This document shows positions 26,438 to 29,046 of a stretch of 34,271 nt of DNA, one piece after another. The stretch is taken from NCBI GenBank assembly GCA_018066825.1, contig JAGPVU010000177.1, forward strand, positions 1-34,271. The letters are read 5' to 3'. Within the stretch, counting starts at the first letter, position 1. Every line of letters begins with the position of its first letter. The translations under genes were made by a program, and so were the position numbers. Source of the stretch: Cycloclasticus sp. (GTDB taxonomy: Bacteria > Pseudomonadota > Gammaproteobacteria > Methylococcales > Cycloclasticaceae). The notes under the pieces were generated by a model. The model worked only from the letters and a program-made list of their open reading frames with translations, had not been told where the DNA came from and ran no database searches.

Positions 26438-27100
26438 ATGCTGCAATTTATTAACGTTAGTAAGCGATACCCCGGCGGCGGCGACGCGCTTAAAAACGTT
26501 AATTTTGAAATAAAACAAGGGGAAATGGCCTTTTTAACCGGCCACTCGGGTGCGGGTAAAAGCACGCTGTTAAAATTAATCGCCTTGCTTGAGCGCAGCA
26601 CCCAAGGCCAAGTGATGCTAGATAATCAGAATATTGGTCGCCTGTCTAAACGGCTGGTGCCGTATACGCGTCGCAAAATCGGCATGATTTTCCAAGACCA
26701 TCGCTTGCTCCATGACCAAACAGTATTTGACAACGTCGCTTTGCCGCTAATTATTGCTGGCTTTAATCACCATGAGATTAAACGCCGGGTGCGCGCGGCT
26801 TTAGATAAAGTGGGTTTATTGGGTAAGGAGCAGCGCTACCCGATTACCCTATCCGGTGGAGAGCAACAACGTATTGGCATCGCTAGAGCTGTGGTTAATC
26901 GCCCCCCTATGATTTTAGCCGACGAACCCACAGGCAACCTTGACCCCGCGTTATCAGAAGAGATTATGCAGTTATTCGTACAATTTAATCAGGTGGGTGT
27001 TACTGTTTTAATCGCCAGTCACGATATCAGTTTAATCCAACAAATGGGCTATCGTACGCTTCAATTATCACAAGGTGAGTTGGTGCAAGCACATGGCTAA
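26438..27100 (+). CDS. ftsE: Cell division ATP-binding protein FtsE
   Basis: [58 protein letters not shown]; located between ftsY and ftsX. Confidence 0.97.
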
Positions 27101-28052
27101 TCGTCGTAACAGCATAAAAAAACCCCTGCAGAATTTTAATCTGCGATCTTATATTCGTATTCACTTACACACTTTTTTTGCGAGTCTCGGCCGTTTTTAT
27201 CGCGCACCGTTTAACTTTATGATGACTGTTAGCGTTATCGCCATCACACTATCCTTGCCCTCTGGCTTGTTAGTATCGATTACCAATTTAAAGTCGTTAA
27301 GCGACCAAATTGACCTGAATAATAACATTTCAATATTCTTACAACAAAGCGTCACTTTTCAGCAAGCGGTGGATTTAAGCCAATTACTGGAAAACGACGA
27401 TAAAATTGCCAATACAACACTGATTAGCAAGCAAGATGCCTTACAGGAGTTTCGTCAATACAGTGGTTTTGGCGCCGCTATTCGTGTTCTCAACGACAAC
27501 CCCTTGCCGCATGTCATTCAAATAACACCTATAGCCAACGTAAACAATTCAACACAACTACAGCAATTAGTTACACAACTTGAACAACAGCCGTCCATCC
27601 AACTTGTACAAATGGATATGGGCTGGTTATCACGCTTACAAGGGATTTTAGATATTGCGCAACGCGCGGTCATTCTTATCACCGTATTATTAGGTTTTGC
27701 TGTGCTACTAATTGTGAGTAACACCATTCGTTTAGAACTACAAAACAGGCGTGATGAAATTGATATTACTCGTCTAGTGGGTGCTACTCGATCTTTTATT
27801 ATGCGGCCTTTTATTTACAGTGGTTTTTGGTACGGTTTTTTGGGTGGGGTATTGGCCTGCATTTTAGTCAACTTATCGGTTTGGTTGCTTGACGGCCCGT
27901 CGAGCTCACTTGCTCAGCTATACAGCAGTTCGTTTACTATCGATTATATGACTATCAGCCACGCGCTGTTATGGGTGCTTTTTTCTATCTTATTAGGCAT
28001 CGTCGGTTCTTGGATCGTGGTGAGCCGCTACCTGAGTGAACTAGAACGCTGA
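27093..28052 (+). CDS. ftsX: Cell division protein FtsX
   Basis: FtsX-type permease; NTIRLELQNRRDEIDITRLVGATRSFIMRPFIYSGFWYG; ATG 27093 ([10 protein letters not shown]) overlaps the ftsE end by 8 nt. Confidence 0.95.
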   Translation: MANRRNSIKKPLQNFNLRSYIRIHLHTFFASLGRFYRAPFNFMMTVSVIAITLSLPSGLLVSITNLKSLSDQIDLNNNISIFLQQSVTFQQAVDLSQLLENDDKIANTTLISKQDALQEFRQYSGFGAAIRVLNDNPLPHVIQITPIANVNNSTQLQQLVTQLEQQPSIQLVQMDMGWLSRLQGILDIAQRAVILITVLLGFAVLLIVSNTIRLELQNRRDEIDITRLVGATRSFIMRPFIYSGFWYGFLGGVLACILVNLSVWLLDGPSSSLAQLYSSSFTIDYMTISHALLWVLFSILLGIVGSWIVVSRYLSELER

Positions 28053-28078: not shown

Positions 28079-28109
28079 TTGACACAATCTTTTGAACTTT
28101 TGCTATAAT
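28079..28109 (+). promoter_or_regulatory. Putative sigma-70-like promoter for rpoH: TTGACA-N19-TATAAT (long spacer)
   Basis: ttgaca at 28079-28084; tataat at 28104-28109. Confidence 0.55.
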
Positions 28110-28135
28110 TAGCACTCTTATATGGCGAGTGCTAG
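28109..28135. promoter_or_regulatory. CIRCE-like operator (HrcA binding site)
   Basis: ttagcactc (28109-28117) - 9-nt spacer ttatatggc - gagtgctag (28127-28135). Canonical CIRCE is TTAGCACTC-N9-GAGTGCTAA, so 17 of 18 arm positions match; overlaps the end of the putative -10. Confidence 0.88.
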
Positions 28136-28176
28136 ACTCTAAATGTGATAGCACGATGATAAATGGGAGGGATAAT

Positions 28177-29046
28177 ATGACTTATGCACTTACAGTACCA
28201 GCTAACTTGTCGGCCGGTTCTTTGGATGCCTATATTGCATCCGTTTCTTCTGCGCCTCTTTTAACCGCCGAAGAAGAAAAATCCTTAGCCTTTCGCTTAC
28301 ACAACGATAATGACTTAGAAGCCGCGCGCACGCTAATCTTATCTCATATGCGCTATGTCATCCATATTGCTAGAAGCTACAGTGGCTATGGTTTAGCCCT
28401 ACCCGACCTTATTCAAGAAGGTAGCATCGGTTTAATGAAGGCAGTTAAACGCTTTGACCCCGAGATGGGCGTACGCTTAGTGTCGTATGCGGTACATTGG
28501 ATTAAATCTGAAATCCACGAGTTTGTTATTAAAAACTGGCGCATTGTTAAAATTGCCACCACTAAGGCTCAACGTAAACTGTTTTTCAACCTTAGAAAAC
28601 ATAAACGCGGGCTGACTTGGTTAAATGAATCAGAAGCGGGTGCTATTGCCAATGACCTGGGCGTCGACAAATCAGCCGTTTATGAGATGGAAAAACGCTT
28701 AAGTAATCACGATATGGCGTTTGACGGCCATCAAGACGACAATGCTGACAGCGACGAATTAGTACACACACCAGCGAGCTTTGTCACTGATGAAGAGCAC
28801 GACCCTGCGCGCATCGTTGAAGACAATGTAGAAGAGTCACGTAATAGTGCTCAATTACAAGCTGCTCTGAATCGCCTGGATGACCGAAGCCGGTCAATTT
28901 TGTCAGAACGTTGGTTGAGTGATGAAAAGTCTACTCTGCACGAACTTGCTGATAAATATCAAGTCTCGGCAGAACGTATTCGCCAGCTCGAAAAAAATGC
29001 TATGAACAAAATTAAGCAGCAATTATTGGAGTTTCAGCCGAGTTAA
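28177..29046 (+). CDS. rpoH: RNA polymerase heat-shock sigma factor RpoH (sigma-32)
   Basis: AYIASVSSAPLLTAEEEKSLAFRLHNDNDLEAARTLILSHMRYVIHIARSYSGYGLALPDLIQEGSIGLMKAVKRFDPEMGVRLVSYAVHWIKSEIHEFVIKNWRIVKIATTKAQRKLFFNLRK. ATG 28177 with upstream gggagg preferred over ORF-track 28129. Confidence 0.98.
   Translation: MTYALTVPANLSAGSLDAYIASVSSAPLLTAEEEKSLAFRLHNDNDLEAARTLILSHMRYVIHIARSYSGYGLALPDLIQEGSIGLMKAVKRFDPEMGVRLVSYAVHWIKSEIHEFVIKNWRIVKIATTKAQRKLFFNLRKHKRGLTWLNESEAGAIANDLGVDKSAVYEMEKRLSNHDMAFDGHQDDNADSDELVHTPASFVTDEEHDPARIVEDNVEESRNSAQLQAALNRLDDRSRSILSERWLSDEKSTLHELADKYQVSAERIRQLEKNAMNKIKQQLLEFQPS

Follow-up and report, generated by a model that had tools for sequence, protein, structure and literature searches.

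We analyzed a stretch of 34,271 nucleotides (hereafter the window) from a Cycloclasticus genome (G000), a 1.91 Mb, 87%-complete assembly in 194 contigs. In the window, rpoH, the gene for the RNA polymerase sigma factor sigma-32, follows ftsE and ftsX, and its closest named relative is that of a Cycloclasticus sponge symbiont (83% identity). The features of the locus are the following.

26438 to 27100, + strand: ftsE (TIGR02673, 289.1 bits).
27075 to 28052, + strand: ftsX, the upstream neighbour (TIGR00439, 330.8 bits).
28079 to 28084, + strand: TTGACA, the -35 element originally predicted, with a 19-nt spacer; shared only with the sister genome G005.
28094 to 28099, + strand: predicted sigma-E (RpoE) -35 element GAACTT, 16 nt 5' of its -10 element, at a fixed offset from CIRCE, as in E. 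coli rpoH P3, and found class-wide.
28101 to 28109, + strand: predicted extended -10 element for sigma-70, TGCTATAAT, sharing one base with the start of CIRCE and conserved in most Cycloclasticus.
28109 to 28135, + strand: CIRCE, predicted to be the operator through which HrcA acts on rpoH, TTAGCACTC-TTATATGGC-GAGTGCTAG; kept in relatives and lost along with hrcA.
28116 to 28120, + strand: predicted sigma-E -10 element TCTTA, marked by a bias to A at spacer base 3 and kept as GTCTTA in 5/6 hrcA-less Cycloclasticus.
28165 to 28171, + strand: GGGAGGG, resembling a ribosome-binding site, 5' of rpoH (from the sequence).
28177 to 29046, + strand: rpoH, 289 aa (TIGR02392, 388.6 bits; cut-off 323.1).

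The + strand at 28109-28135 reads TTAGCACTC-N9-GAGTGCTAG, a CIRCE element that matches 17 of the 18 arm bases of the consensus used for scoring (TTAGCACTC-N9-GAGTGCTAA) and has the exact 9-nt spacer. Our scan of the window recovered this site just as the original prediction had described it, and the TIGR02392 score bears out the identity that it gave to the gene 3' of CIRCE. It was the only CIRCE with 3 or fewer mismatches in the window, where dinucleotide shuffles expect 0.01, which excludes a chance origin. The site lies between the promoter elements and rpoH, 41 bp from the gene, and the predicted transcription start sites fall inside it.

The same genome encodes the repressor that such an operator calls for: hrcA was found between nadK and grpE (G000:C87; TIGR00331, 332.5 bits), with a 3-mismatch CIRCE upstream of hrcA-grpE. 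A look for CIRCE at groESL or dnaK had also been proposed. Besides the hrcA-grpE site, the groES match in G005 has a perfect CIRCE 107 bp upstream of it; groES was not found in the 87%-complete G000 assembly, so groESL control is seen in relatives only. RpoE is present as well (TIGR02939, 294.3 bits), with RseA adjacent (RseA_N, 33.1 bits) and nadB, assigned by its sequence, divergent from rpoE. The CIRCE arms at rpoH are identical between G000 and G005.

Conservation in relatives, on which the prediction also depended, holds in the order and well beyond it in the class. Among 50 named gammaproteobacterial genomes, HrcA was found in 28 of the 30 with CIRCE at rpoH versus 1 of the 20 without it, and the HrcA-less controls that we checked (Halomonas, Acinetobacter, Cobetia and others) had no CIRCE with 2 or fewer mismatches in the genome. 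One locus, L169, has an rpoH without CIRCE in the presence of hrcA. Pseudoalteromonas and some Methylococcales carry CIRCE at rpoH without a sigma-E motif, so HrcA control does not need sigma-E.

The Pseudoalteromonas HrcA is strongly diverged (TIGR00331, 117 bits, below the cut-off of 197). We compared the Pseudoalteromonas/Alishewanella hrcA regions (L247-L251) and rpoH loci (L109, L118, L125, L157, L165); the diverged Pseudoalteromonas hrcA still lies between nadK and grpE in both regions examined (L248, L251), and in 4/5 such genomes no CIRCE with 2 or fewer mismatches lies anywhere but at rpoH, as though the HrcA regulon had shrunk to this gene.

Within Cycloclasticus, all 10 hrcA-positive genomes (including G017, scored as positive with its hrcA cut by a contig end) keep the rpoH CIRCE with 0-2 mismatches, versus none of the six hrcA-less genomes with rpoH (G001, G004, G009, G012, G014 and G016; only genomes with rpoH were counted), where the site has at least 4 mismatches or is no longer recognisable. 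In 5/6 of the latter nadK and grpE are adjacent with hrcA missing between them, and where the two adjoin an assembly gap is excluded as the reason for the missing gene. The groES operator is also affected: G004, G009 and G014 lack any CIRCE with 3 or fewer mismatches genome-wide, no CIRCE was found around groES in G001 and G012, and G016 retains a 3-mismatch site there. On a five-gene tree, hrcA losses number 5 by parsimony, at least 3 of them forced by supported branches. The operator state follows hrcA in all 3 supported independent pairs (sign test, p 0.25), three pairs being too few for significance by themselves. GAACTT and GTCTTA persist in the hrcA-less genomes while CIRCE decays, GTCTTA being retained in 5/6. 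Judged by these comparisons, the operator is under selection that depends on hrcA, and the comparison of genomes gives good support to HrcA control of rpoH.

Three further observations were made in this genus. The sponge symbiont G016 (L257) carries an hrcA remnant before grpE, 29 residues with 52% identity to the end of HrcA, which is probably the trace of a pseudogene. In G013 (L078) the distance between the CIRCE/sigma-E promoter and the rpoH start is 171 bp, compared to 24-41 elsewhere, and the leader appears to have gained about 130 bp by insertion. Two rpoH copies with identical CIRCE lie on separate contigs of one genome (G002:C161 and G002:C200) and are probably an assembly duplication.

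The original prediction placed the operator over a TTGACA-N19-TATAAT promoter. These letters are present (TTGACA at 28079-28084 and TATAAT, after N19, at 28104-28109), but TTGACA is conserved only as far as the sister genome G005; our promoter scan, with a spacer range of 16-18 nt, did not report the pair, N19 being beyond that range. The proposed overlap amounts to one base common to CIRCE and TATAAT, while the remainder of CIRCE lies downstream, over the predicted start sites. The extended -10 element TGCTATAAT is mostly limited to Cycloclasticus. A second promoter was absent from the earlier account: TGAACTT-N16-TCTTA matches the sigma-E consensus (a GGAACTT-like -35, 15-17 nt, and a TCNNA -10), with GAACTT at 28094-28099 and TCTTA at 28116-28120. 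The TC of TCTTA are the last bases of the CIRCE left arm and TTA the first bases of the spacer. From conservation, the promoter retained at rpoH is predicted to be the extended -10 element and, mainly, the sigma-E promoter GAACTT-N16-TCTTA, and HrcA probably blocks the sigma-E promoter together with the overlapping extended -10 sigma-70 promoter.

The arrangement of these elements is not peculiar to the window. Of 69 non-redundant rpoH promoters, 38 have GAACT or GAACC at 15 or 16 nt 5' of the CIRCE start, with no more than 2 at any other offset. At this position GAACTT precedes the TC that closes the CIRCE left arm by 16-17 nt. CIRCE itself leaves spacer base 3 free; this base is A in 32/38 promoters with GAACY versus 6/31 without (Fisher p 5.5e-8). 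At the corresponding offset GAACY was found in 0/27 groES CIRCEs and 0/23 hrcA CIRCEs, which excludes GAACTT as a general part of CIRCE promoters; TTGACA and a -10 resembling TATTA are found at most of the groES sites.

We then counted GAACY-N9-11-CIRCE, a composite 42 bases long, in 369 genomes of the class. It occurs in 133 of them (95/270 genera), once per genome, and the reversed pattern had 0 matches in the same genomes. The gap is N10 in 115 of the 133 composites; A occupies spacer base 3 in 119 and T occupies base 1 in 86, and bases 5-9 have no strong preference. Every composite locus checked (30/30) lies upstream of rpoH. The composite is present in 128/271 HrcA-positive versus 5/98 HrcA-less genomes (p 7e-16, uncorrected for relatedness; the counts in this and the other two-by-two comparisons are not independent events); the five without HrcA are metagenome-assembled genomes (MAGs) that are 62-86% complete. 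Furthermore, the Methylococcales without an RpoE match over the cut-off (G030, G034, G057 and G059) have GAACY in 0/4 cases versus 27/39 for those with RpoE (p 0.015), and 3 of these four retain CIRCE and HrcA.

These data bear on the possibility that HrcA represses rpoH via a housekeeping sigma-70 promoter only, GAACTT and TCTTA being a coincidence or some other conserved element. The conservation of TGCTATAAT in Cycloclasticus is in keeping with this, as are the several lineages with CIRCE at rpoH but without GAACTT. However, TATAAT is mostly missing outside Cycloclasticus, whereas GAACY holds one fixed offset with a gap of exactly N10 in most composites, and A at spacer base 3 is found mainly where GAACY is present. 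In addition, GAACTT and GTCTTA outlast CIRCE in genomes that lost hrcA, and GAACY is absent from those without RpoE. We consider a sigma-70-only arrangement unlikely. It is more improbable still that the inverted repeat acts at the RNA level, forming a hairpin or thermometer in the 5' leader of rpoH, and not as a DNA operator. The repeat lies near the start codon, and an RNA thermometer does exist in E. coli rpoH, but the arm sequence itself is conserved class-wide, the site tracks hrcA, and the left arm would stay untranscribed because the starts are predicted inside CIRCE. We give just as little credence to the site being a functionless relic in this species: it has one arm mismatch, and the hrcA operator of the same genome has 3, but its arms are identical in G000 and G005, and the decay that follows hrcA loss in Cycloclasticus goes to 4 mismatches or beyond.

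We thus regard it as very likely that an HrcA operator is built into a sigma-E-dependent rpoH promoter, the counterpart of E. coli P3, and that in Cycloclasticus this operator overlaps with an extended -10 sigma-70 promoter as well, with HrcA repressing until GroEL is titrated and sigma-E setting the output. This model starts from features read in the genomes, namely an operator that forms part of a composite element, the genes for HrcA, RpoE and RseA, and hrcA-dependent selection on the operator. From these we infer how HrcA would bind and repress, how it would sense GroEL and how the gate would work. In the unstressed cell, GroEL would keep HrcA folded and active, and HrcA would occupy CIRCE, where it would cover the sigma-E -10 element (28116-28120), the overlap with the extended -10 element and the predicted start region, and so hold rpoH down. 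Heat or protein damage would occupy GroEL, leaving HrcA inactive and rpoH released. In Caulobacter, HrcA depends on GroESL to stay folded (PMC8119881), so that chaperone titration would release rpoH. Since HrcA would also control groESL and hrcA-grpE, its inactivation would raise the chaperones as well as sigma-32. The amount of rpoH transcription would be set by sigma-E activity, and it would be maximal when envelope stress frees sigma-E from RseA and rpoH is released from HrcA at the same time. The heat-shock cascade originally proposed, with HrcA derepressing rpoH, gains support from the presence of hrcA, the conservation of the site and the co-loss within the genus. Since HrcA probably blocks both promoters, we would expect integration with sigma-E as well as a cascade from HrcA to sigma-32. 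With the HrcA site exactly over the sigma-E promoter of the master heat-shock gene, two stress sensors, kept apart in textbook accounts of E. coli, probably meet on a 42-base element.

In E. coli, rpoH is controlled by sigma-E, several sigma-70 promoters and an RNA thermometer, with no HrcA, and our HrcA search, run on E. coli as a control, gave no match. The E. coli gene also lies after ftsX, and its P3 promoter (GAACTT-N16-TCTGAT) has the same sigma-E spacing upstream of rpoH as the composite but is without CIRCE; inspected by eye for CIRCE likeness, it is out of register in the right half. In a CIRCE the triplet that precedes the spacer is fixed as CTC, and E. coli P3 (GGTCTGAT) has GTC there. 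A hand count of CIRCE-less rpoH promoters with a sigma-E match, those of hrcA-less Cycloclasticus and several relatives of Halomonas among them, found GTC in 12/19, and the -10 element seems to drift towards GTC after release from HrcA. The CIRCE-less promoters at L159 and L163/L164 keep the sigma-E match (HrcA was tested for and is absent in L159 and L163) and show an apparent CIRCE half-site relic (TTGGCACT-TCTAA; TTAGCC-TTCTAA). Tentatively, and with slightly more doubt than confidence, we suggest that the HrcA/sigma-E composite on rpoH may be the ancestral gammaproteobacterial design, of which the HrcA-free P3 of E. coli would be a remnant after hrcA loss, with a -10 element that, no longer constrained by the operator, drifted from CTC towards GTC. 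If the composite is ancestral, cytoplasmic stress (through HrcA-GroEL) and envelope stress (through sigma-E) would jointly set sigma-32 via one element.

HrcA and CIRCE control groESL and dnaK in B. subtilis and Caulobacter. Repressor family, operator and spacing are common to those systems and to the one described here, but the target here is the gene for sigma-32 and the promoter predicted to be blocked is mainly a sigma-E promoter, whereas the groES operator in relatives sits at a sigma-70 promoter. A gammaproteobacterial survey by Permina and Gelfand (2003) reportedly deals, by its title, with the two regulons concerned here and may list CIRCE at rpoH. A literature search for HrcA with rpoH and RpoE, within a limited set of papers, found no description of the sigma-E/CIRCE composite; CIRCE upstream of rpoH was already known as a prediction from 2004. 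In that work a perfect CIRCE was predicted at -51 of rpoH in Geobacter sulfurreducens, which has hrcA in its genome and further CIRCEs at hrcA-grpE-dnaKJ and groESL (Rodionov et al. 2004, PMC545781). Both bacteria combine CIRCE at rpoH with hrcA, Geobacter being one deltaproteobacterial genome, and the account of it in the relevant part of that paper describes neither an overlap with sigma-E nor a test of hrcA dependence (PMC545781). The 42-base composite provides a one-per-genome signature in about a third of the sampled gammaproteobacteria. If our reading is true, GroEL would be a direct input to sigma-32 synthesis, and the E. coli rpoH model would be one derived case, compared to which many other gammaproteobacteria would wire the repressor and sigma-factor branches of the heat-shock response in series.
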